A stretch of DNA of 64,000 bases from Elusimicrobiota bacterium (GTDB lineage: Bacteria; Elusimicrobiota; Elusimicrobia; UBA1565; UBA9628): NCBI GenBank assembly GCA_016234805.1, contig JACRNU010000017.1, positions 1 through 64,000 of the forward strand, in the 5' to 3' direction. The translations under genes were made by a program, and so were the position numbers. The notes under the pieces are model-generated. The model was given only the letters and a program-made list of their open reading frames with translations, did no database searches and was not told the DNA's origin. Of this stretch, positions 20,197 through 38,785 are shown in pieces (position 1 is the first letter of the stretch; each line of letters opens with the position of its first letter).

Positions 20197-23100
20197 ATGA
20201 AACCTCTATTCCTTCTGATCGCCGTGGTCTTGGGCGTCATCACGGTCCTGCCGGCCTGGGCCGCTTCCGGACGCGGCGCGGCCCGTCCCCGAGGGGCAGG
20301 CGCCCTGGCCGGGCTCAAGAAGGGCCAGAAGGTCGGAGACTTCACAGCCGTGAGCCTTTATGTCAACCATCTCGGCAAGGCCATGGGCGCCCGGTTCCTG
20401 CACCGGCCCACGGGCCTCGAGACCGACCTTCTCTTCTTCGCCTCGGTCCCGCAAGTGTCGCTCACCTTCAAGACGCTCACGGCCGACGACAAGGGCATCC
20501 CTCACGCGCTCGAGCACCTGGTGCTGGGCAAGGGCGCCAAGGGCAAGCGGTTCAACATGCTCGTGGCTATGAGCATCGGCGAGTACACGGCCGGCACTTA
20601 CGCGGACCTCACGGGCTACATGTTCAACACTGCGGCCGGGATGGAGGATTTCTACCGACTCTTCGAAGCCTGCCTCGACACCCTGGTCCACCCGGATTTC
20701 ACGGATTCTGAGATCCGGCGGGAGATCTACAACCCGGAGGTGGTTTCGAACGCGTCCATGGGCGCGCTTGCCATCGAGGAGAAGGGGACGGTCTACAACG
20801 AGATGGTCTCGGGCATGGAGAAGACGGACCTGGCGGGCTGGTTCGAGCTCAGCCGCCTTGCGTTCGGTCCCAAGCATCCCCTGGCGCTCAACTTCGCGGG
20901 CGCGCCGGACTCGATGCGGACCGTGACCGTGCCCGAGGTCCGCGCGTTCCATGCGGAGCACTACCGGATCGGGCCGGGCATGGCCGTGGCAGCGGCCCTT
21001 CCCGCCAACGAGGACCCGTTCGCGTTCCTGGAGCGCTTCAGCGCCATCCTGGCCCGGGTGGGCAAGGGGGCCGGGCCCGCGCCGGCAGCCATCACCGTGC
21101 CGCCGTTCGAGCCCGCGGCCGAGGGGAGCATCGGCATCGGCTCCTATCCCTCGGCGGACGCGGACGCTCCGCAGGACGTCTACCTGGCCTTCAAGCCTAT
21201 CTGGTCCCTCTCGGCTTCGGACGCCCTGGCCCTCGGCGTGCTCTTGGACCTCTTGGCGGGAGGGGAGACCTCCTACCTCCACAAGGACATGGTCGACCGC
21301 CAGACCAGGAAATCGGATTTCGGGATCACTTCGGTGGGCGCCTACCTAGACGACCCGCCTTCGAACTTGCCGTGCGTGAGCTTCTCCGGCCTAGCCGCGG
21401 ACCGGGTGAGCAAAGGATCGTTGGAGTCGCTGCGCGGCGCGGTGGTGGACCGCGTGGCCTGGCTCGCGGGCTTGAAGCCCGGGAGCCAGGAGCTCCGCGA
21501 GGTCGGGGCCAAGGCCCGCTCTCTGGTCAGCGCCCGGCGCAGGGGCCTGCTCAAGTTCATGGACAACCCCCCGCGCTTCGGCATGCGCTCGGGCGGCGTG
21601 GCGTGGCACAAATACCTCGAACGGCTCAACGCCTCGTCCGCGGGCTTCCGGAAATCGGTGCCGCAGACCGAGGCCTTCGTCCGTCTCCTGGCGCGCATCG
21701 ACGCGGGAGAGAACGTGTGGGCCGCGGCCGCGGCCAAAGGGGGCTTGAGGTCCAAGCCCTTCGTGACGAGCCTCAGGCCCGACGCGGACCTCCTCGTGCG
21801 ACAGACCGCGGAGAAGCGCGCCCGGATCGCGTCCCTCGAGTCCGAGGCTCTGGCGTCCCATGGCGGGAAGGACCTCCAGGCGGCCTTGAAGAAGCGCAAG
21901 GCAGCCAGCGACCTCGCGGCCCTCGAGCTCGAGGAGCGCGACAAGAAGGTCGAGAAAGCCTCCTTCGTCCAATCCCCGCCGCTCTCTCTCGATGAGGAGC
22001 TCTCGGTCCGGCAGAAGGAGGTGGACAAGATCGGGACCGCGACCTTGAGCGGGGTCGGGGACTCGCCGTTCACGGAGATGGGGCTCTTCTTCGACCTCTC
22101 CCGGGTGCCCGCGGAGTACCATGTCTACCTGCCCCTGCTCGCGGATACGCTCACGGGCGTGGGCGTGACCACGGCCGCGGGTGAGGCGCTCGACTACAGC
22201 GCCATGATCGAGAAGTACCGCCAGGAGATCTACGAGCTCTCGAGCGACGTGGCGGCCAACCCGCGTACGAGGAGACTCGAGCTCTCCCTGACCGCCGGGG
22301 CGTCGAGCCGGGATGAGGTCGCCCGCGCCGCCGAGTGGGTCGAGTCCTGCCTGCGCCGCAATCTCCTCGGGCCTGCGTCCCGGGGCCGGCTCATCGACAT
22401 GGCGCGCGAGCGCATCCAGAGCCTGCGCACCATGACCCAGCAGCGCGAGGAGTACTGGGTGCGCGAGCCCGCGTCCGCGTGGCTCTACCAGGACCAGCCC
22501 GCGTGGATGAGCATTCGCAGCCCTTTCACGAAGCTCCACCACCTCGACCGCCTGCGCTGGATGCTCGAAGACCCGTCCAAAGCCGAGCTCGCGGACCAGC
22601 GCGCGGGTCTGGCCGGGGTCTCGGCATCCGCGGCCAAGGGGACGAGGAAGGACGCCCTGGCCGCGATCGCGAAGCTTCCCGCGGAGATGGCCGAGGGGCT
22701 CAGGTGGGAGCTCGGCGGCTTGCCGGATGAGACCTGGCGACAGGATCTGGCGGAACTCAGCCGTGGTATTTCTGCCGATCTTGGGGTGGGCTCAGCCGCG
22801 GTGGTGGCCAAGCTCAAGGAACTCCAGTCCATGATCTTGAGGAGGGGCCGCGTCCGGTTGAGCCTCACGGGCAACGACGCTTCCATGGACGAGGCCCTGC
22901 GGAGGCTCTCTGCCGTGCTCTCCGCCCTGCCCGAGGCAGGTCCTCGCGGCCCAGAGCCGCGTTCCCGGGCCATGATCCTCGAAAGGCTGGCCGGCCGCGA
23001 GCCCTCGGTCCGGGAAGGCGGCCGGCCCGTGCACGTGGCCCTGGTCAACAACGGCACCAAGTCCGGGGTGCTCGTGCTGTCGGCCAAGGCGCCTTCGTAC

Positions 23101-23706
23101 CAAGAGCACGAGGCTGGGGACCTCGTGGATTATCTCGCGGCCAATGTCCTTGGAGGCTCGGCCGGCCACAGCCTTTTCATGAGGACCTGGGCCGAGGGCC
23201 TCGCGTACGGCAACGGGGTGGGTTCGAGCCTCCTCAACGGCAGGATCGGCTACTACGCGGAGCGCTGCCCAAGCCTGGCGGCCACCATGGGCTTCGCGGC
23301 GAGCGTGGCCTCGAACACCGCGATCGACTCTCCGTTCTTCGTGGAGTACGCCCTGGCCAATTCCTTCGGAGATTACCGCGGCGCCGAGGACTTCGCCACC
23401 CGCGGCTATGCCATGGCCGCCAACCTTGCCGACGGCGTCACCCCTGAGGTCGTCCGGGCCTTCAAGTCGCGGCTCGTGGCCAAGGCCCGCGAGCCCGGGG
23501 CGCTCAAGGCGGTCCAATCAAGGGTCGCGCCCGTGCTCGGCCGCGTGCTCGTGGGCCTGGGCCCGAAGGCCGCGGAGGCTCCGGAGGCCTCGGGGTTCGT
23601 CATCGGCCCGGCGCCCCTGCTCGACGACTACGAGGCCTACCTCAAGGCACACGGAGAGGCGGAGCGCCTCATCCGTCTCTACCCTCGGGACTTCTGGCTG
23701 CCCTAG
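20197..23706 (+). CDS. Exported M16-family (PreP/M16C-like) metallopeptidase
   Basis: 1169 residues with a signal peptide (MKPLFLLIAVVLGVITVLPAWA). The inverted zinc motif HALEH is at 103-107 with a downstream NEMVSGME glutamate region near 205, as in the M16C presequence-protease branch. The length of ~1000+ residues agrees with four homologous domains forming a chamber that digests short peptides. Residues 545-610 include a charged coiled-coil hinge. It starts one base after the E2 stop. Functional linkage to the dehydrogenase is not obvious; the proximity may only be transcriptional. The 3' end overlaps the convergent DUF72 gene by 4 bp. Confidence 0.82.
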   Translation: MKPLFLLIAVVLGVITVLPAWAASGRGAARPRGAGALAGLKKGQKVGDFTAVSLYVNHLGKAMGARFLHRPTGLETDLLFFASVPQVSLTFKTLTADDKGIPHALEHLVLGKGAKGKRFNMLVAMSIGEYTAGTYADLTGYMFNTAAGMEDFYRLFEACLDTLVHPDFTDSEIRREIYNPEVVSNASMGALAIEEKGTVYNEMVSGMEKTDLAGWFELSRLAFGPKHPLALNFAGAPDSMRTVTVPEVRAFHAEHYRIGPGMAVAAALPANEDPFAFLERFSAILARVGKGAGPAPAAITVPPFEPAAEGSIGIGSYPSADADAPQDVYLAFKPIWSLSASDALALGVLLDLLAGGETSYLHKDMVDRQTRKSDFGITSVGAYLDDPPSNLPCVSFSGLAADRVSKGSLESLRGAVVDRVAWLAGLKPGSQELREVGAKARSLVSARRRGLLKFMDNPPRFGMRSGGVAWHKYLERLNASSAGFRKSVPQTEAFVRLLARIDAGENVWAAAAAKGGLRSKPFVTSLRPDADLLVRQTAEKRARIASLESEALASHGGKDLQAALKKRKAASDLAALELEERDKKVEKASFVQSPPLSLDEELSVRQKEVDKIGTATLSGVGDSPFTEMGLFFDLSRVPAEYHVYLPLLADTLTGVGVTTAAGEALDYSAMIEKYRQEIYELSSDVAANPRTRRLELSLTAGASSRDEVARAAEWVESCLRRNLLGPASRGRLIDMARERIQSLRTMTQQREEYWVREPASAWLYQDQPAWMSIRSPFTKLHHLDRLRWMLEDPSKAELADQRAGLAGVSASAAKGTRKDALAAIAKLPAEMAEGLRWELGGLPDETWRQDLAELSRGISADLGVGSAAVVAKLKELQSMILRRGRVRLSLTGNDASMDEALRRLSAVLSALPEAGPRGPEPRSRAMILERLAGREPSVREGGRPVHVALVNNGTKSGVLVLSAKAPSYQEHEAGDLVDYLAANVLGGSAGHSLFMRTWAEGLAYGNGVGSSLLNGRIGYYAERCPSLAATMGFAASVASNTAIDSPFFVEYALANSFGDYRGAEDFATRGYAMAANLADGVTPEVVRAFKSRLVAKAREPGALKAVQSRVAPVLGRVLVGLGPKAAEAPEASGFVIGPAPLLDDYEAYLKAHGEAERLIRLYPRDFWLP

Positions 23707-29233: not shown

Positions 29234-31378
29234 ATGGAGAGTCCTGGGCATTCCGAGGAGTTCCCGTCCGGCGGCGCGGCCGCCTACGGACCCGGCTGGC
29301 TGTCGCTGGCAGCCGGCATCGGGCTCATGCTGGCATGCGGCGGGCCAGCTTTGGCAGCCGGCACTCCTGATCCCAACTACGACGCTGACATCCAAATGTT
29401 AATAGACGCTGGTAAATCTCCCTGTTCCCATGATCCAGCATGTACAGCGGCGGCCGGCCGCATAAGCGGAGCCAGACCGGAACAATGGAAGATCCACCAA
29501 GGATGCGTAGGCCGCCTGGGGGACGATGAATCGCAGGAATCGTGCCTCCGGGAAGCGGGCCTGCTTGAATCTGTATCGAAGAAAGGCGCTCGCGACAAGT
29601 TCAAGGCGGGCGACAAGGAGGGGGCGTGCTCCGACGCGAAAGCCGCTGTGGCGGAGGATGCCGGCGACGACGCGTCCTTCGCTATCGCCCAACTGAGCTG
29701 CTCGAACTTCGATCTCAAAGAGCCGCCGAAGACTCCAGCCAAGAACCCGTTCGGCGAGACTCCGCGGGACGATCTGGAAAAAGGGCCGCGGGCCAAGGGC
29801 GTGTCCCTGGAGACCGCAGGCGCCGTGGCGCCGCTCCGCGCCTTCGGCATGCCCGACAAGCGCGTTCCCATGGACCCGCAGATGAAGGCCTCGGACCTGG
29901 CCGCGGCCGACGCGAGAACGTTTCTGGAGGCGGGCAATATCGATGAAGCCATCAGGCGGGCGCTTGCGGCGCTCAAGGCCAACCCGAAGAACCGGCGGGC
30001 CCGCTTGATGTTGGCCTACGCTGACAAGGCCAAGAAGGACTGGCCTGCGGTCATCAAGGACGCCAAGGAGGGCCTTGCCCTCAAGCCGGACGACCCGCAG
30101 TTCCTCAAGCTCGAGGCTGACGCCGAGAACCATCTGAAGCTCTGCAAGGAGGCCTTCCAGACTTCGGGCAGGGCCGTGGCCGCGGACCCCACGGACGCGA
30201 CAGCTTACGCGATCAAGGCCTGGTCCCTGGGGTGCCTGGGAGACAGGGAAGGGATGCTGGCCCTGCTCAAGAAGGCGGTGGCCCTGGACCCCAAGTTCCA
30301 GATGAGCCTGGAATCCGCGGCGGACCTCGAGGGGGACTCGGACCTCTTCTTCCTCATGCCCGGGGAGCAGATGCCGGCGGGCAAGAAACAGCCGGCCGGC
30401 CCGACTCGGACGCAGGCTCTGGGCATCGCCGGGGGATTGGCGCTCGTCGCCCTCGTCGGCATCGTCGGCGGGATGCTGCGTCTCATGCGGCCGCGAGGCC
30501 CGGCGCAGGGAACTCCCGGTCCGGCAGAGCCCATTGCCGCCGTGAAAGCCGCCCCTCCCCAGGCCGCGAGCCCCGAGGCCGGCGCGGCCTCCGTGCCGGA
30601 CAGGTACGACATTCGCCAGAAGATCGGCGAAGGCGGCATGGGGGTTGTCTTCGGGGGCTTCGACCGGGAGCTCATGCGGGCGGTGGCGATCAAGAAGATG
30701 CGGCCCGAGCTCAAAGAGAACAAGGAGAACCTGAAAAGGTTCCTGGCCGAGGCCAGGAGCGTGGCGGAGCTCAGCCATCCCTTCATCGTGAGCATCCACG
30801 ACATCGTCCAGAAGGACGGCGACGTGTTCCTGGTGTTCGAATACGTGGACGGCAAGCCTCTTTCCTCCATCCTGAATTCCTGCAAGCGCATGACCTTCAC
30901 CCAATGCCGCGATATCTTCAGCTATATCTGCCAGGCCATGGACTGCGCGCACAAGGCGAAGGTCCTGCACCTGGACCTCAAGCCCGGCAACATCATGGTG
31001 GACCACCAGGGCTTCGTGAAGGTCATGGATTTCGGCCTGGCCAGGCATGCCAAGGATTCGTTATCGCGCATGACGCGCCAGGACATGGCCGGGACCCTGG
31101 CCTACATGGCCCCGGAACAACATCGGGGAGCCTTCTGCCCAGCCTCCGATGTCTACGCCATGGGCGTCTGCCTTTACGAGATGCTGACCGGGACGCTCCC
31201 TTTCAGCGGCCCGGACTTCCTCGCGGCAAAGGAATCCTTGAGCCACAAACCACCGCTGACCCTGGCGCCTGACATCCCCAAGGGGCTGGAAACGGTCTTC
31301 GCAGACGTCTTCACGCCTGATCCCAAGTCACGGCTCGCAGACAGCATGGAGTTCCTCCGGCGTCTGAAGGAACTCTGA
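29234..31378 (+). CDS. Exported TPR domain - TM - Ser/Thr protein kinase
   Basis: 714 residues. A 23-residue N-tail precedes a hydrophobic signal (GWLSLAAGIGLMLACGGPALA). Residues ~45-105 contain Cys pairs (SPCSHDPAC, SQESCLREA). TPR repeats occupy ~220-365 (ARTFLEAGNIDEAIRRALAA, KPDDPQFLKLEADAENH). One TM lies near 395-415 (LGIAGGLALVALVGIVGG). The kinase spans ~455-714: GEGGMGVV near 463, AIKK, HLDLKPGN near 577 and DFG near 598. The usual HRD Arg is Leu, as in RD-minus kinases that do not need activation-loop phosphorylation. It is a paralogue of the gene at 206. Confidence 0.88.
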   Translation: MESPGHSEEFPSGGAAAYGPGWLSLAAGIGLMLACGGPALAAGTPDPNYDADIQMLIDAGKSPCSHDPACTAAAGRISGARPEQWKIHQGCVGRLGDDESQESCLREAGLLESVSKKGARDKFKAGDKEGACSDAKAAVAEDAGDDASFAIAQLSCSNFDLKEPPKTPAKNPFGETPRDDLEKGPRAKGVSLETAGAVAPLRAFGMPDKRVPMDPQMKASDLAAADARTFLEAGNIDEAIRRALAALKANPKNRRARLMLAYADKAKKDWPAVIKDAKEGLALKPDDPQFLKLEADAENHLKLCKEAFQTSGRAVAADPTDATAYAIKAWSLGCLGDREGMLALLKKAVALDPKFQMSLESAADLEGDSDLFFLMPGEQMPAGKKQPAGPTRTQALGIAGGLALVALVGIVGGMLRLMRPRGPAQGTPGPAEPIAAVKAAPPQAASPEAGAASVPDRYDIRQKIGEGGMGVVFGGFDRELMRAVAIKKMRPELKENKENLKRFLAEARSVAELSHPFIVSIHDIVQKDGDVFLVFEYVDGKPLSSILNSCKRMTFTQCRDIFSYICQAMDCAHKAKVLHLDLKPGNIMVDHQGFVKVMDFGLARHAKDSLSRMTRQDMAGTLAYMAPEQHRGAFCPASDVYAMGVCLYEMLTGTLPFSGPDFLAAKESLSHKPPLTLAPDIPKGLETVFADVFTPDPKSRLADSMEFLRRLKEL

Positions 31379-31467: not shown

Positions 31468-32532
31468 ATGGCCATCATCGATAGAGTGAAATACGACGGT
31501 CCCGGGACGGTCCTCGTCTGGCGGCACCCGCCGGACGACCTCACGTGGGGCACCCAGGTCATCGTCAACCAGTCCCAGGAGGCGCTCTTCTTCAAGGGCG
31601 GCCAGCTCCTCGACGTCCTCGGGCCGGGCACGCACACGCTAGAGACCTCCAACATCCCGCTGCTCAGGGCTCTCATTAAGCTGCCTTTCGGCAACAAGAC
31701 CCCGTTCGCGGCGGAGATCTACTTCGTGAACAAGGCGACCAACCTCGACGTCAAGTGGGGCACGACCACCCCGATCCAGCTCCAAGACCCCAAGTTCAAC
31801 GTGATGCTCCCGGTCCGGGCCTTCGGCCAGTTCGGCGTGCGCGTCGCGGACTCGCGCAAGCTCGTGGTCCAGCTCTCGGGCACCATGAACGAGTTCACCG
31901 TGGACTCGCTCAGCAACCAGTTCCGCGGGATGCTGCTGACCCGCATCAAGGACTACCTGGCCGAGACGGTCATCAAGCAGAAGGTGACCATCCTGGAGAT
32001 CAACGCCTACCTCGAGGAGATCTCCGAGGCCCTGCAGAAGAAGGTGGAGAACGAATTCGCCCGTTTCGGTGTCCAAGTGGTGAACTTCTTCGTCAACTCC
32101 ATCGACGCCCCTGAGACGGACGAGAGCGTCGTGCGGCTCAAGAAGGCCATGGCGGACAAGGCCGAGATGGACATCCTGGGAGAGGGCTACAAGACCAAGC
32201 GCACCTTCGACACCATGGAGAAGGCGGCCGGGACCGAGGGCAGCGCCATGGGCGCGGGCATGGGATTGGGGATGGGCGTGGGAGCCGGCGCGGGCATGGG
32301 ACAGGTCATGGGCGGGCTCATGGGACAGGCCGCCGCAGGCTCGGTCGGGGCGAAGGCGTCGTGCCCGTCCTGCAGGGCCGAGGCTCCGGCCGGAGCCAGG
32401 TTCTGCCCGTCCTGCGGCAAAGGCATGGGCCCGGCGGCCTGCCCGCACTGCAAGGCCGAGACCGCGCCGGGAGCCAAGTTCTGTCCGTCCTGCGGCGAGT
32501 CACTTTCCTCCCCCCGCGGGGGAGGAAAGTAG
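31468..32532 (+). CDS. SPFH-domain protein with C-terminal zinc ribbons
   Basis: 354 residues. No signal peptide or TM. Residues ~20-250 form an SPFH/band-7 domain of the YdjI-like type (SQEALFFKGGQLLDVLGPGTHTL at its start, then PVRAFGQFGVRVADS, LEINAYLEEISEALQ). A Gly/Met-rich flexible segment (~255-290, GAGMGLGMGVGAGAGMG) connects to two zinc ribbons with paired CPSC/CPSCG and CPHC/CPSCG motifs (295-345). Such proteins form large membrane-linked assemblies. A 12-bp hairpin covers the last codons and stop. Confidence 0.85.
   Translation: MAIIDRVKYDGPGTVLVWRHPPDDLTWGTQVIVNQSQEALFFKGGQLLDVLGPGTHTLETSNIPLLRALIKLPFGNKTPFAAEIYFVNKATNLDVKWGTTTPIQLQDPKFNVMLPVRAFGQFGVRVADSRKLVVQLSGTMNEFTVDSLSNQFRGMLLTRIKDYLAETVIKQKVTILEINAYLEEISEALQKKVENEFARFGVQVVNFFVNSIDAPETDESVVRLKKAMADKAEMDILGEGYKTKRTFDTMEKAAGTEGSAMGAGMGLGMGVGAGAGMGQVMGGLMGQAAAGSVGAKASCPSCRAEAPAGARFCPSCGKGMGPAACPHCKAETAPGAKFCPSCGESLSSPRGGGK
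32503..32529 (+). other. 12-bp hairpin overlapping the SPFH stop codon
   Basis: Arms CTTTCCTCCCCC and GGGGGAGGAAAG with loop CGC, encoding the last residues and the region of the stop. The core CCTCCCC-CGC-GGGGAGG occurs again at 40355-40373 before ahcY. Calculated strength is high but no T-run follows. Confidence 0.5.
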
Positions 32533-32575: not shown

Positions 32576-33187
32576 ATGTACTTGATCGCGATGCTGGCGG
32601 CGGCGCTCAGCGTTTCCCCCGCGTGGGCGGGGAAGGTCACGATGTGCGTGGATGACGCGTGCACACAGAAGGTCAAGAGGGGGATGCTCGACTGCCGGAT
32701 CCACGACACCAAGAAGCGCTCCCTTTCCCTGGGGTTCAAGATGGACGTGGCCCTGGTGGCCAAGGTCGGCCCGGAGATCACCTGGGGCCGGCAGACCGGG
32801 ATCCAGTGGAACGGCATGAGCCAGCAGCTCATCAGCCGGTACAAGATCCTCTGCGACCAGCACAACAAGGGGCACCTCTCCGTGGCCGAGTTCGACCGGA
32901 GGAACGAGAAGCTCGAGGGCCTATACGAGAAGGCGGTCGAGCTCAAGGCTGAGATCGAGCAGAACATCTATCAGAGGGCTGACAAGGCCTTCGACGACCT
33001 CGACCGCGAGGCCGCCAAATACAGCGGCGGCGACGCCCTCAAGGAAGAGCTCAAGGGCAAGATCAGCAAGTACTCTTCCGACATCTCTTCCCTGGCCGAA
33101 GAGGTCAAGTCCGAGGATTCGGGTGAGCAGGCAGGGGAGGAGACCCCTGCTCCTGCCAGGAAGAAGAAACCCTCGCGGGACGAGTAG
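32576..33187 (+). CDS. Exported coiled-coil protein, unknown
   Basis: 203 residues with a GAGGAGG site. Signal peptide MYLIAMLAAALSVSPAWA. Three Cys are within residues 20-40 (MCVDDACTQ, MLDC) and one near 83. The middle is a long charged helix or coiled coil (EKLEGLYEKAVELKAEIEQ) and the tail is Glu/Pro/Lys-rich. I recognise no family. It is followed by a strong intrinsic terminator, and may be cotranscribed with the SPFH gene 43 nt upstream. Confidence 0.6.
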   Translation: MYLIAMLAAALSVSPAWAGKVTMCVDDACTQKVKRGMLDCRIHDTKKRSLSLGFKMDVALVAKVGPEITWGRQTGIQWNGMSQQLISRYKILCDQHNKGHLSVAEFDRRNEKLEGLYEKAVELKAEIEQNIYQRADKAFDDLDREAAKYSGGDALKEELKGKISKYSSDISSLAEEVKSEDSGEQAGEETPAPARKKKPSRDE

Positions 33188-33197
33188 GCCGCGTCCC

Positions 33198-34490
33198 ATG
33201 GAGCGCCCGGGCCTGACGAGCCGGGCGCTCTTCTTTTTCCCACGGGGGGCTGCTCTGGCGGCCCTTCTCCTGCTGACGGCCTCTGTTGCCCTGGCCGACC
33301 TGTCCCTCGTTCAGATCGTCCAGTCCCAGACCAGCGCCGGGGAGAACGGCCTCTTCGGCAAGACCTGGGTCCAGGTGTCGGGACGCAAGATGCGCCTGGT
33401 CTCCGGCCATGCCCGCAAATTCAAATCCGGCCGGAAGGGGAAGCAGGGTCCGGTCCGACTCATCCAGATCATCGACCTGGACAAGGGCTCGGCCCTGCTC
33501 CTTGACCCGACGGCCAAGACCTTCGAGTCCGGGCCCCTGACGGATGTCCGCTACGCGGGCTCGGTGGGCCGCTCCTCGGAGCCGGCCTCCGCCCATCTCC
33601 GGTCGAGCCAGATCGAGGTGGAGCGCGGCAGGCTCGACCGCGACGTGGGGGACCTCAGGTGGTGGCACTACCGCGTCGGGGTCAAGGTCCGTCTTGACGA
33701 GGGCGAAGGGGTCGAGCGCCTGGCGCGCATGGAGCAGGACCTTTGGATCGCCCCGCTCACGGGCGACCTCCAAGAGGGGCTGCTTGACCTGGCTGCCTTC
33801 GAGACCGACTACCGCAAGGCCACGGGAAGCCGGTTCTCGCCTTTGGACTACTGGACGTACCAGATGCGGGAGGTCGCTTCCTACCTGCGGGTCCCCGAGG
33901 AGGAGGTCCAGGACCTGCTGACCCAGGTCCGGGACGCCTTCCCCGCCGTGCCCGGCTACCCGCTGGCGAGCTCCATCTCGTGGTGGAAGGACACGGAGCC
34001 GCTGCCCCCGGAGACCGCTCCCGAAGCGCCGGTCGCCAAGCTGGGCGACGGCAAGCATCCCCCGTGGCCCAGCCAGCCGCCTCCCCATCCGAGCCGGCTC
34101 AGGCCCATCCCGAGCTTCTACCCTGTCCGGTCCCGCTTCAGGCCCATCGACTTCAGCGGCTCCTGGAGGGTCATCGACCGCATGACCGGCTCCGAAGGGG
34201 GGGAGCGGAAGAAGCGCTATCCGGAATACGCCGTTTTCCAGGAAGAGATGCGCAAGAAGGTGGCGGGCGCCATGGTGGGGACGGCTGCCAAGACCGCTGA
34301 GGCTGCTCGCGGCAGGGCTCGGGCGCCGGCCAAGCCGTCTCCTTCCCGGACCGGCCTTCCGGAGATCCCCGTGCCCTTCTATCAGATCAACACGGAGCTC
34401 GACGCATTCAGCTCCGTAGACGAAATCCCCGCCGAGGATTTCGTCCCGCCTCCGGACTACAAGCTCGCGCCCGCCACCAAGGGTCGTTGA
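33198..34490 (+). CDS. Exported protein with DUF4412-like N-terminal region, unknown
   Basis: 430 residues if started at ATG 33198; the frame is open earlier. A hydrophobic signal (AALAALLLLTASVALA) ends near 34. Residues ~40-160 look like a secreted beta domain of the DUF4412/LolA-like kind (GRKMRLVSGHARK, IIDLDKGSALLLDPTAKTFE). The last 150 residues are Pro/Arg-rich with repeated PIPSFYP, RPIDFSG and FVPPPDY. The terminator hairpin of the previous gene coincides with codons 2-11, so either the real start is downstream of it or translation and termination compete here. Confidence 0.6.
   Translation: MERPGLTSRALFFFPRGAALAALLLLTASVALADLSLVQIVQSQTSAGENGLFGKTWVQVSGRKMRLVSGHARKFKSGRKGKQGPVRLIQIIDLDKGSALLLDPTAKTFESGPLTDVRYAGSVGRSSEPASAHLRSSQIEVERGRLDRDVGDLRWWHYRVGVKVRLDEGEGVERLARMEQDLWIAPLTGDLQEGLLDLAAFETDYRKATGSRFSPLDYWTYQMREVASYLRVPEEEVQDLLTQVRDAFPAVPGYPLASSISWWKDTEPLPPETAPEAPVAKLGDGKHPPWPSQPPPHPSRLRPIPSFYPVRSRFRPIDFSGSWRVIDRMTGSEGGERKKRYPEYAVFQEEMRKKVAGAMVGTAAKTAEAARGRARAPAKPSPSRTGLPEIPVPFYQINTELDAFSSVDEIPAEDFVPPPDYKLAPATKGR
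33201..33238 (+). terminator. Intrinsic terminator
   Basis: Perfect 10-bp arms GAGCGCCCGG (33201-33210) and CCGGGCGCTC (33221-33230) followed by TTCTTTTT. It is the strongest terminator in the window, 13 nt after the stop of the gene ending at 33187, and it overlaps the first codons of the next ORF. Confidence 0.8.
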
Positions 34491-34564
34491 TCGCCCGCCG
34501 CCTCCCGGTTTTTCCGTAACATCGTTGAAAACACTTTTCCCGCGGCGGGGGGTATGCTATGAGC

Positions 34565-35164
34565 ATGGAAGCGCCGAGCTCCAAGGTGCCAGGCACCATT
34601 GTCCTAGGCACCATTGTCCTGTTCGTCCTGTTGGCGTTCTCGTCTTCCGCGGCCGCGGCCGCGTCGTTCATGGTCGAAGACGAGGGCGGCTTCTTCCCGA
34701 CCGGCAGGCCCGTGGAGTTCCACGACCGCTACGGTTGGCGGAGCTACCGCGCGCGCTTCGAGTTCGGCCTGGACAGCAGCGGCCGGGCTTTGACCAAGGA
34801 CTCCAAGCTCAGCCTGCAGGTCTTCAAGAAGGACGGCGAGGTCTGGGAGTATTCGTGCCGCGCCAAGGGCCGCGACGCCCTCACGGCCAACGTCAACGTC
34901 ATCCCGGACAAGGCCGTTTCCGTGGTCGTGGAGTGCCGCATCCCGGAGCGCGAGTTCGCCAAGGCCGTGGACCTCGATCCCCTGGATGTGGGGATCCCCA
35001 ACCTCGTTTTCCACGCCATCGTGCAGGACGGGATCGCGCGCCTCGGGGCGCAGAGGGGGCTCTACATCACCCCCACCCCGGACTCCGAGACCGGCGACCT
35101 CGGAGTCTACGCCTCCGCGGAGCACTCTCCCTCCAACCCGCTGGTGATCTTCCACAGCAACTAG
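34565..35164 (+). CDS. Exported protein, unknown, with duplicated signal-peptide segment
   Basis: About 199 residues from MEAPSSKVPGTIVLGTIVLF. A TATGCT box ends 6 nt before this ATG (an ATG two codons earlier abuts the box). The signal contains a direct repeat GTIVL-GTIVL made by a 15-bp tandem duplication. The mature part is beta-rich (RYGWRSYRARFEFGLDSSG, LQVFKKDGEVWEYSCRAKG, VIPDKAVSVVVECRIPE). I recognise no family. Confidence 0.55.
   Translation: MEAPSSKVPGTIVLGTIVLFVLLAFSSSAAAAASFMVEDEGGFFPTGRPVEFHDRYGWRSYRARFEFGLDSSGRALTKDSKLSLQVFKKDGEVWEYSCRAKGRDALTANVNVIPDKAVSVVVECRIPEREFAKAVDLDPLDVGIPNLVFHAIVQDGIARLGAQRGLYITPTPDSETGDLGVYASAEHSPSNPLVIFHSN
34585..34620 (+). repeat. REP-like palindrome plus 15-bp tandem repeat inside a CDS
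   Basis: GGTGCCAGGCACC (34585-34597) is a perfect inverted repeat around one A. AGGCACCATTGTCCT is then repeated head to tail at 34591-34605 and 34606-34620. It keeps the reading frame. Confidence 0.6.
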
Positions 35165-35258: not shown

Positions 35259-35264
35259 TATAAT
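35259..35264 (+). promoter_or_regulatory. -10 box TATAAT for the Lon-like gene
   Basis: The TATAAT is 44 nt from the chosen ATG (35309), which has a GGGAG site. The upstream in-frame ATG at 35267 lies only 2 nt after the box and cannot be on the transcript as a start. Confidence 0.55.
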
Positions 35265-35308
35265 CTATGCATTGGGGACGCATCAAGCTAATGCATAGGG
35301 AGTTGGGT

Positions 35309-38300
35309 ATGTCCAATAGAAAGGCCATCAGCACTGCCTCAAGAATCCTTTCCGCTGCCGTGGCGCTCGTGCTCGCTTTCAGCGGGCCGCTGAGCGCTGC
35401 CGGCAATGTGGCGGCTGTCCGCATCGCCCCCATGCCCGTGACCGGGGCGAGCGCCCTGGCGGGCGCTCGTCTCTACCATGTCGAACTCCCCAACCTCTCC
35501 CTTCAGGGCGGGTCGCTCAACGTCCCCTCCGCGTCCCTGACCCCCTCGGTCAACCCGACCGTGGCCTCCGTTGCCGCGCCTGAGGCGGCTCTGCCGGCCG
35601 CGATCCCGACGCTCCAGGCCCACCCCGTGTTCGACGTGCTCAACAAGCTCGAGGCCGCTGGGGTCAACCTCCAGGGCGGCGGGACCCAGGCGGACGCGGC
35701 CAAGCTCATCGCAGCGGCCGAGACCCTTCCTGCGGGCAGGACCAGGGACGACCTTGTGACCTTCGCCAAGGCTCTCTCGGCCCCCAAGGGCGAGGTCGGC
35801 GCGGGCCTCGACAAGGCTTACGACAACTCTGCCGCCTCGAACGGGTCCGCCGCGGTCGCGGTCGAATCCGGCAGCATCTGGAACACCCTTTCCAAGGTCA
35901 GGCTGCTCCCCCGGTCCCTGCGCAAGAGCTTCGCGCAGCGCGCCGAGAAGGGCCGGCTCAAGGCCCAGCCCCAGGATCCCGCCAAGTTCGAGGTCCCGGT
36001 GGACCAACTCCGGTGGGTCCCTGCCGCTGACCTGCTCCCTGAGAGCACCAAGGACATCCCCGCGGGGCCTGCGTCCATCGTGGGCCAGGACCGGGCGCTC
36101 AAGGCCCTCTCCTTCGGCCTGAGGATGCCCGGCGAGCGGTACAACATCTTCGTTTCGGGCCATGAGGGCTCGGGCCGCGAGACAGCGGTCCGGTCCGCGC
36201 TCGCGAAGCTCGCGCCCGCCATGCCCACCCCGAGGGACATGGTGGCTGTGACCAACTTCGCGAACCCGGGCGCGCCCGCCCTTCTCAAGCTCACTGCCGG
36301 CGCTGCGCCGGTCTTCCAGGCCGCGGTCGCGGAGTTCATCGAGCGCTACAAGCAGACGCTGCCCCAACTGGCCCAGTCCGAGCAGCTCGGCCAGGCCAAG
36401 AAGATGATCGAGGCCAAGCTCAAGGCCGCCATGGCCGAGCGCCAGAAGGCCCTCGATGAGGAGATCTCCAAGGTCACGCTCGGCAAGTTCGGGCTTTCCC
36501 TCTCCATCAAAGAGACGGAACAGGGCTACTCCCTGATGGTGGCGCCCACGCTCAACGGCAAAGCCCTGACCCCGGAGCAGGTCCAGGCTGAGATCGCCGC
36601 GGGCCGGTTCACGCAGGCGGAGTGGGACGAAGTCATGTCCAAGATGGACGACGCGGCTGCTCCTTTCGTCGAGAAGTTCCAGGCCATGATGAACGAGAAC
36701 AGCGCGGACGCGGCCCGGGCCGAGGCTATGCTCGGCAAGCTCCTCCAGCAGATGGCGGGTCAGCTGGCGAACCAGCTGGGTGACTCTGTCCGGCAGGCTG
36801 TGGTGGGCGGCGGCAATGTGGACGAGGGTGCGGTCGCCGAGGCCAAGGCCCGCTTCGAGGCGGCCCTGGCCGAGCTCCAGAAAGAGATCGCCGGGGTCAA
36901 GGTCGGCAAGTTCGGCGTCATCCTGCAGGCCATCCCCACCGAGGGCGGGGTCAAGCTCGGGATCGGCCTCACCCTTGATGGCGAGCCGGTCACTCCTGAA
37001 CTGCTCGAGGCCAAGGGCGTGAGCATGGATGAGGTCAAGGCCGCGCAGGCCGAGCTCAAGAAGACCGTCATGCCCTACGTCGCGAAGATGAAGGCCCTTT
37101 ACGAGAAGCTCAACCAGGAACTCGAAGCCGCCTCGTCCAACACCCCGGCTCCGGCCGGGCCCGAGGACATCGGGGCCCTCAACTATGTCGAGAACCTGAT
37201 CGGCCACGCTGCCGCGCGCTACGAGGACTTCCTCCCGAAGCAGCAGTCCGGCAACGGCCTCATGGCCATGCTCGGCGGAGGGGCTCAGGAGACTGCGGAT
37301 CCGGCCGAGAACTACAAGGTCAACGTCATCGCTGCCAATCGGCCGGACAGCGGGGCTCCGGTGATCTTCGAGAAGGCCCCTTCCTTTGAGAACCTCTTCG
37401 GCGAGGTGGAGACCGAGAGCATGGTGGTTCCGGGCGTCGGGGTGGTCAAGAAGAAGAGCCCCGGCGGTCCGACGCTCCGGTCCGGCTCGTTCCAGCGGGC
37501 CAACGGCGGGTTCCTCGTGCTCAACGCCCTCGACGTCCTGCGCTCCCCCGGAGCGTGGCAGGGCCTGATGTCAGCAGTGAGCAGCGGCAGGGCCGTCATC
37601 ATGGAGGGCGGCATGACCCGCATGATGGGCATGGGCGGCGAGGCGTATGCGATGCCCACCAAGGTGAAGGTCGTGCTCATGGGCTCGCCCATGATACGGA
37701 TGCTGCTCGAGGCCAATGACGAGAGTTACGCCGGCAACTTCAACTCCAAGGTCGAGTTCCAGTCCACGCTCGACATCACGAAAGAGACGATCAACGGCGT
37801 CCTCGGCTTCCTCAAGAAGATGGTGGTTTCCAGCGCGGGCCAGGTGCTCGACATGACCAAGGACGCCATCAGCGCGGTCATGGAGTACTCCGCTCGGCTC
37901 GCGGAGTCCAACGAGAGGCTCTCGGCGCAGTTCGGGGCGCTGCTGGGCATCATGCGCGAGGCGTCGTTCTGGGCCAAGGAAGCCGGGCGCGAGACGGTCA
38001 CCCGCGAGGACGTCCGGGTCGCGGTGGCCGCCAAGCTCGACCGGGAAGGCGGCTCCCGCGAGCGGATCCAGGAGATCTTCAAGAAGGGCGTGTTCCGGGT
38101 GGACGTCCAGGGCGCGGCCGTGGGCCAGATCAACGGCCTGGCCGTCATGGGCGACTTCGGCGTGCCCGCGAGGATCACGGTGGTCAGCTCCCCCGGACAG
38201 GCCGGACTCGTGTCCGTGGATCGAGATTCGGGCCAGACCGGACCGAGCTTCAACAAGGCCCTTGGCGTGGTCCAGGGGTTCCTTGAGCACACCTTCGGTC

Positions 38301-38785
38301 GGAAGAAGCCCGTGTCCGCGCACCTGCGGATCTCCTTCGAGCAGAACTACGGCGGCATCGACGGCGACTCCGCGACCTCGACCGAGATCTACGCGATACT
38401 GTCAAGCCTCTCGGGCGTGCCGATCCAGCAGCGGTTCGCGGTGACCGGTTCAGCCGACCAGTTCGGCAACGTCCAGGCCATCGGCGGGGCCAACCACAAG
38501 ATCGAAGGCTTCTATAAGGTGGCCAGCGGCATGGTCAATAAGGCCTATCAGGACGGCCTTAACGCGGTGCTCGTCCCAGCGACCAACGTCAAGGACCTTC
38601 AGCTCGACGAAGAGGTGGTGAAGGCCGTGAAAGAGGGCCGGTTCAAGATCTACTCGGTCAAGCACGTCAGCGAGGGCATCGAGATACTGACGGGCGAGGC
38701 CTATTCGGAGATCCTGAGGAAGGCGCAGGCTCGGCTCGACGAGTTCGCCGAGGCCGCGACTCCCTCCGTGTACGTGAAGCGCTAG
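35309..38785 (+). CDS. Lon-like ATP-dependent protease (AAA_32/LonB-type) with signal peptide
   Basis: 1158 residues. Residues 1-35 are a signal peptide (ISTASRILSAAVALVLAFSG), followed by ~190 residues of Ala/Pro/Ser-rich spacer. The AAA part begins near 235: IVGQDRALKALSFGL, P-loop-like GHEGSGRETA near 284, an inserted helical region with two related segments (VTLGKFGLSLSIKETEQGY and VKVGKFGVILQAIPTEGG), then NGGFLVLNALDVL near 727. The C-terminal Lon domain has the Ser-Lys dyad: DGDSATS (S1021) and GGANHKIEG (K1064). The family is cytosolic, so an export signal is surprising. ATP supply outside is the obvious problem. Confidence 0.82.
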   Translation: MSNRKAISTASRILSAAVALVLAFSGPLSAAGNVAAVRIAPMPVTGASALAGARLYHVELPNLSLQGGSLNVPSASLTPSVNPTVASVAAPEAALPAAIPTLQAHPVFDVLNKLEAAGVNLQGGGTQADAAKLIAAAETLPAGRTRDDLVTFAKALSAPKGEVGAGLDKAYDNSAASNGSAAVAVESGSIWNTLSKVRLLPRSLRKSFAQRAEKGRLKAQPQDPAKFEVPVDQLRWVPAADLLPESTKDIPAGPASIVGQDRALKALSFGLRMPGERYNIFVSGHEGSGRETAVRSALAKLAPAMPTPRDMVAVTNFANPGAPALLKLTAGAAPVFQAAVAEFIERYKQTLPQLAQSEQLGQAKKMIEAKLKAAMAERQKALDEEISKVTLGKFGLSLSIKETEQGYSLMVAPTLNGKALTPEQVQAEIAAGRFTQAEWDEVMSKMDDAAAPFVEKFQAMMNENSADAARAEAMLGKLLQQMAGQLANQLGDSVRQAVVGGGNVDEGAVAEAKARFEAALAELQKEIAGVKVGKFGVILQAIPTEGGVKLGIGLTLDGEPVTPELLEAKGVSMDEVKAAQAELKKTVMPYVAKMKALYEKLNQELEAASSNTPAPAGPEDIGALNYVENLIGHAAARYEDFLPKQQSGNGLMAMLGGGAQETADPAENYKVNVIAANRPDSGAPVIFEKAPSFENLFGEVETESMVVPGVGVVKKKSPGGPTLRSGSFQRANGGFLVLNALDVLRSPGAWQGLMSAVSSGRAVIMEGGMTRMMGMGGEAYAMPTKVKVVLMGSPMIRMLLEANDESYAGNFNSKVEFQSTLDITKETINGVLGFLKKMVVSSAGQVLDMTKDAISAVMEYSARLAESNERLSAQFGALLGIMREASFWAKEAGRETVTREDVRVAVAAKLDREGGSRERIQEIFKKGVFRVDVQGAAVGQINGLAVMGDFGVPARITVVSSPGQAGLVSVDRDSGQTGPSFNKALGVVQGFLEHTFGRKKPVSAHLRISFEQNYGGIDGDSATSTEIYAILSSLSGVPIQQRFAVTGSADQFGNVQAIGGANHKIEGFYKVASGMVNKAYQDGLNAVLVPATNVKDLQLDEEVVKAVKEGRFKIYSVKHVSEGIEILTGEAYSEILRKAQARLDEFAEAATPSVYVKR

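Follow-up and report, generated by a model that had tools for sequence, protein, structure and literature searches.

A probable exported LonC-type protease with an AAA-like module lacking an ATP motor in an order of Elusimicrobiota

To our knowledge, published descriptions place Lon proteases with an AAA module in the cytosol or facing it. A Lon-like gene in the window (the whole 64,000-nucleotide stretch of an Elusimicrobiota contig analysed here) nevertheless appears to open with a signal peptide, which raises the question of how an ATP-dependent protease could function once exported. We consider it likely, with a probability of roughly 0.7, that the product of positions 35309-38785 is an exported LonC-type protease whose AAA-like part has no ATP motor.

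Start site and N-terminal region

35259 to 35264, + strand: TATAAT, likely -10 element of the Lon gene's own promoter
35309 to 38785, + strand: Lon-like gene, open frame of 1158 aa
35309 to 35401, + strand: predicted Sec-type signal peptide of about 30 residues, cleavage near LSA/A or SAA/G (sequence, hydropathy, homologues)
35402 to 35602, + strand: Ala/Pro/Val/Ser-rich leader, probably flexible, translated; 26% mean identity in the clade
35603 to 35782, + strand: conserved N-domain (HPV..LNKLQ..GV.LPET..DAAKL..AA..LP.G) in the alignment; 45% mean clade identity

The protein is laid out as a Sec-type signal peptide, an A/P/V-rich leader, a 60-residue N-domain, an AAA-like module and a Lon Ser-Lys protease domain. 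A longer open frame (35267-38785) starts at an in-frame upstream ATG, from which the protein numbering used here (P0001) is counted. This ATG lies 3 nt 3' of TATAAT, so that the transcript is likely to begin there or only after it, which would exclude it as the translation start; the real start is likely to be ATG 35309, which has the Shine-Dalgarno GGGAG six bases 5' of it. The TATAAT region (TATAATCTATGC) is identical, with nearly the same spacing, in a same-genus relative (L003, 'Elusimicrobia bacterium', a groundwater MAG) whose protein is 77% identical. No good -35 match for the TATAAT was found upstream of the Lon gene.

The N-terminus, MSNRKAISTASRILSAAVALVLAFSGPLSAAG, has R4, K5 and R12, a hydrophobic core of about 15 residues and an Ala-rich cleavage site, and is uncharged over residues 13 to 37. 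Hydropathy in the signal region peaks at 2.79, compared with -0.2 to 0.8 in ten cytosolic relatives, and almost every homologue that retains its N-terminus shows, after a Shine-Dalgarno, a peak of 2.2-2.8. The signal of L015 was missed by automatic start choice and is visible in its reading frame; automatic start choice found none in L011, where the upstream frame is garbled, and the N-termini of L013 and L019 are lost to contig ends. Substitution relative to L003 at codon positions 1/2/3 is 0.14/0.11/0.40 in the leader and 0.17/0.12/0.33 in the core, and the signal peptide, with only 31 codons, shows a weaker position-3 excess (0.26/0.19/0.39). Because the leader shares the position-3 excess of the core, the N-terminal region is very probably translated, as judged from this substitution pattern. 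An earlier, sequence-only reading had held that the protein starts with a signal peptide, and this is borne out by the similar signals that open nearly every homologue. A start after the signal region, which that reading had named as evidence against itself, is opposed by the Shine-Dalgarno, the conserved signal and the codon-like leader substitution.

About 195 residues separate the signal peptide from the AAA-like core, in agreement with the '190-residue spacer' described earlier, but they are not all spacer and include the conserved N-domain (P0001 113-172). In the bacterium's own genome, a clear N-domain match is confined to the Lon-like gene, which rules out a general sorting signal. For the leader as a shared export tag there is one weak match (L043, E 0.005). 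It lies in a 381-aa exported-looking protein of the same genome (L043 634-1779, - strand) that matches no Pfam family and has a leader (VRVAPI...) with a weak resemblance to the Lon-like one.

Family assignment and nucleotide motifs

35993 to 36286, + strand: front half of the AAA-like module (LonC/AAA_32 alignment; 51% mean clade identity)
36158 to 36184, + strand: Walker A in degenerate form, GHEGSGRET, with Arg in place of Lys (alignment)
37352 to 37762, + strand: AAA_32 domain (Pfam PF13654, E 2.7e-23)
37505 to 37528, + strand: degenerate Walker B, FLVLNALD, without Asp-Glu
37853 to 38044, + strand: AAA lid domain (PF20436, E 2.2e-20)
38066 to 38686, + strand: Lon protease domain (PF05362, E 1e-8)
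38369 to 38371, + strand: catalytic Ser codon, in DGDSA (alignment)
38498 to 38500, + strand: catalytic Lys codon (alignment)

The Pfam search matched AAA_32, the LonB lid and Lon_C, with LonC_helical below its cut-off; the NCBIfam LonB and Lon models match far below theirs (LonB 121.9 against a cut-off of 516.6). The best solved relative is MtaLonC of Meiothermus taiwanensis (E 2e-62 over 489 residues). Resemblance to LonC (MEROPS S16.007) extends to the split AAA module of AAA_32 type and its helical insert, the degenerate nucleotide motifs, the B-type GDSA site, here DGDSA of the [E/D]GDSA form together with the catalytic Lys, and both LonC-specific protease insertions, one after the Lys helix and one near the last helix. 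These insertions were found in P0001, in the cytosolic relative L033 and in MtaLonC, and are absent from the LonA of the same genome. P0001 also agrees with LonC in lacking canonical AAA+ motifs. It differs in having a signal peptide, a leader and an N-domain, to which most members add a second insert module, for a length of 1158 aa compared with about 720-820. LonC has been described as soluble and cytoplasmic (PMC9569914), from which the clade-wide signal peptide and cysteine depletion depart, the location here being a predicted one. That description concerns known LonC members and is not diagnostic of the family; hence we use the label 'LonC-type, exported variant'.

Three other identities were ruled out. 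LonA is defined by a LON N-terminal domain, intact Walker A and B motifs and a PKDGPSA site, none of which applies here; an ordinary LonA with GPPGVGK and FLLDE is encoded elsewhere in the same genome. Archaeal LonB shares the B-type protease site, and the lid found here belongs to the LonB lid family, but the sub-cut-off score and the degenerate nucleotide motifs exclude it; archaeal LonB has ATPase activity and keeps its body in the cytosol, held by a membrane insert that lies inside the AAA module (PMC3391209). The YlbL-type PDZ-Lon of Bacillus subtilis likewise has a Lon Ser-Lys domain that is likely to lie outside the cytoplasm and to work without ATP (PMC6051672), but it lacks an AAA module and carries a PDZ domain, whereas Pfam places AAA_32 and the lid in our protein, which keeps its AAA-like module, and finds no PDZ domain. 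The designation 'Lon-like ATP-dependent protease' given previously therefore stands for the Lon family but not for a standard ATP-dependent Lon, as the protein groups with LonC/AAA_32.

Conservation within the clade is highest in the protease domain, and Ser1035 and Lys1078 (P0001) are invariant in all members reaching them. Both ATPase and Ser-Lys motifs had been reported; the Ser-Lys pair is present, but the ATPase motifs are not intact, with Arg in Walker A, a Walker B without Asp-Glu, and no sensor-1 Asn. Arg replaces the Walker A Lys in 34/34 exported-clade members. The AAA_32 'Lon protease family' (E. coli YcbZ, plasmid relatives of about 800 aa, L033 and L034) has the same domain order and mostly Arg, but differs in having a signal peptide in 0/10 full-length proteins sampled, 1-8 Cys and one insert module. 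As 6/10 of the sampled cytosolic AAA_32 relatives, plasmid-borne ones included, carry Arg at the Walker Lys position, this substitution, which had looked specific to exported forms within the order, is ruled out as an export adaptation and ATP independence appears to have preceded export. Loss of ATP use probably came first and then made export possible, to judge from this distribution. The motifs suggest that ATPase activity has been lost in the exported clade, although some AAA_32 proteins retain the Walker Lys and P-loops with Arg can bind nucleotide. Constraint within the clade is similar in the front half of the AAA-like module (51% identity) and in the protease (57%). With its front nearly as constrained as the protease and its Arg invariant, the AAA-like module seems to be not decaying but in use, presumably as a scaffold or gate.

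MtaLonC has nucleotide motifs that are degenerate in the same way, has no ATPase activity, forms its hexamer without Mg2+ or nucleotide, and as a hexamer degrades unfolded substrates independently of ATP; TTC1975, the LonC of Thermus thermophilus, also has no ATPase activity (PMC3391209). Given the degenerate motifs and the behaviour of MtaLonC, the puzzle posed by the sequence-only reading, that Lon is cytosolic and needs ATP, largely disappears for a LonC-type protein, while the export signal on which it turned appears genuine.

Distribution in the phylum and the duplicated insert

The survey covered exported forms within the phylum Elusimicrobiota, and the clade sample includes draft genomes. 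About 34 homologues in one order form one clade, and nearly all recovered N-termini carry a signal peptide. Matches at E 1e-20 were found for 37/97 relatives, a few of the 37 being cytosolic or fused forms, and PF13654 occurs in 31/295 genomes of the phylum, mostly as the exported form and in one order. One contig scan for relatives outside the phylum returned only L003. In the maximum-likelihood tree, a branch with support 100/99 has 31 exported sequences all to one side, and the ten cytosolic sequences likewise lie together to one side (support 100/100). Both forms occur in genome G049, which encodes a cytosolic LonC with no signal and an intact GPPGVGK (L033) as well as an exported one (L007). 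The core of the exported forms holds 11 Cys per 29,788 residues versus 50 per 7,811 in the cytosolic forms, a 17-fold depletion (Mann-Whitney p 3e-7, with ancestry ignored).

A fusion, L035, sits on the exported side of the tree, on a long branch that leaves its placement unsure. A single open frame, cut by a contig end (G056:C117:400-4526, - strand), codes for at least 1375 aa. Its M48-Lon-MFS product combines a part resembling M48 metalloproteases, a LonC-like core that has no Cys and carries Arg in Walker A, and a membrane part resembling MFS, with a match just below the cut-off.

36473 to 36730, + strand: insert module copy 1, helix / beta-hairpin / helix (VTLGKFG...), 97.7 bits
36896 to 37156, + strand: insert module copy 2 (VKVGKFG...), 75.2 bits, 141 residues past copy 1

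A duplication-like insertion with two VGKFG segments about 140 residues apart had been noticed earlier and is real: local alignment of one copy against the other scores 117, compared with 36 +/- 6 (maximum 59) in 500 shuffles, and other members of the clade have the duplication too. The KFG segments lie at P0001 403 and 544, 141 apart, the duplicated module is about 86 residues long, and in almost every full-length exported member a model of it finds two copies spaced by about 141 residues. L036 has three copies (one partial), L037 and L035 have one, and the module is single in the cytosolic relatives L033 and L034. Structure prediction, which had been suggested as a check, gave a poor core model (pTM 0.25, built from a four-row alignment) and a moderately confident insert arm, predicted as helix, beta-hairpin, helix, twice (local pLDDT about 70-83).

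Proposed role, competing explanations and neighbouring genes

For the Lon-like protein we infer export itself, the hexamer, the lack of ATPase activity and the kind of substrate alike. Directed by its signal peptide, the chain would pass through Sec unfolded. Once in the periplasm or on the cell surface, its AAA-like and protease domains may assemble without nucleotide, as in MtaLonC, into a hexameric chamber with its Ser-Lys sites facing inward, in which the AAA-like module would be a scaffold and entry gate and not an ATP motor. Unfolded or loosely folded envelope proteins could enter passively and be degraded, and the N-domain and doubled insert arm would probably help to select or hold them. 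Activity without ATP in the periplasm is suggested by what is known of the family together with the motifs. On sequence grounds, the exported clade appears to depart from the published cytoplasmic description of LonC; a literature search without most subscription papers found no paper linking LonC with Elusimicrobiota. A whole exported lineage would show an AAA-like chamber that outlived its motor and moved to an ATP-free compartment, and would offer a natural test of the role of an AAA scaffold without ATP.

34559 to 35164, + strand: exported protein of 201 aa in which two Cys are invariant, directly upstream of the Lon gene, candidate partner or substrate

The protein may instead be a dedicated maturation protease that cuts one or a few envelope proteins, such as this two-cysteine neighbour, and not a general clearance enzyme; we regard this as possible, at about one chance in four. 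The neighbour has a signal peptide (with a lipobox-like LAGC in the L097 version), no Pfam family was found for it, and its predicted structure (pLDDT 54) had no PDB match at E<=0.001. In favour of maturation, it adjoins the Lon gene in about 15/35 Lon-bearing genomes, being elsewhere or absent in the others, and it occurs only in the same order as the exported Lon. Among 56 genomes of the order, 24 have both genes and 15 neither (Fisher p 0.006, blind to shared ancestry and genome size); against maturation, 11 have the Lon without the neighbour and 6 the reverse, and the conserved TATAAT suggests that the Lon gene has its own promoter. A strict operon is not supported, the two genes often being apart in families f2 and f3. 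The association is best treated as a lead, not proof.

The signal could also be an uncleaved anchor that holds the protease at the inner membrane, the body of the enzyme lying outside the cytoplasm. The positive n-region and single hydrophobic stretch would fit, and YlbL is a membrane-anchored Lon-domain protease outside the cytoplasm (PMC6051672), but in most members the hydrophobic core is short and gives way to helix breakers and to cleavage sites made of small residues (PLSAA, AWSQ, ALAQ), making an anchor rather unlikely. Equally doubtful is a scheme in which the exported Lon has retained its P-loop, with the invariant Arg, as a non-hydrolytic switch for a periplasmic ligand or polyanion and forms, with the two-cysteine protein as its dedicated partner, a new envelope quality-control system in this order. 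Loss of protease activity, leaving the protein a chaperone or scaffold, might be imagined from the degenerate motifs elsewhere in the chain and from the inactivity in vitro of YlbL minus its membrane segment (PMC6051672); the invariance of Ser and Lys wherever covered, in the best conserved domain, makes this very improbable. The least probable reading is a cytosolic ATP-dependent Lon whose apparent signal is untranslated 5' sequence. Standard Lons are cytosolic, and there are an in-frame ATG upstream and further Met codons downstream, but the signal is kept behind a good Shine-Dalgarno in nearly all homologues, and the codon-like leader substitution, cysteine depletion and degenerate ATPase motifs all speak against it.

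Other genes of the window, all on the + strand, may be noted. A 455-aa exported-looking protein with no Pfam match (33123-34490) lies beside the Lon locus in the same-genus relative too. It is preceded by an SPFH/Band-7 protein whose C-terminus bears a double zinc ribbon (31468-32532), and L080 preserves the gene order between the SPFH/Band-7 gene and the Lon gene. Further upstream are a 714-aa protein (29234-31378) in which TPR repeats, a Ser/Thr kinase domain and a transmembrane segment occur together with what is likely to be a signal or membrane segment, and a 1169-aa protein with weak M16 peptidase domain matches of 18-21 bits, one just above the cut-off (20197-23706).
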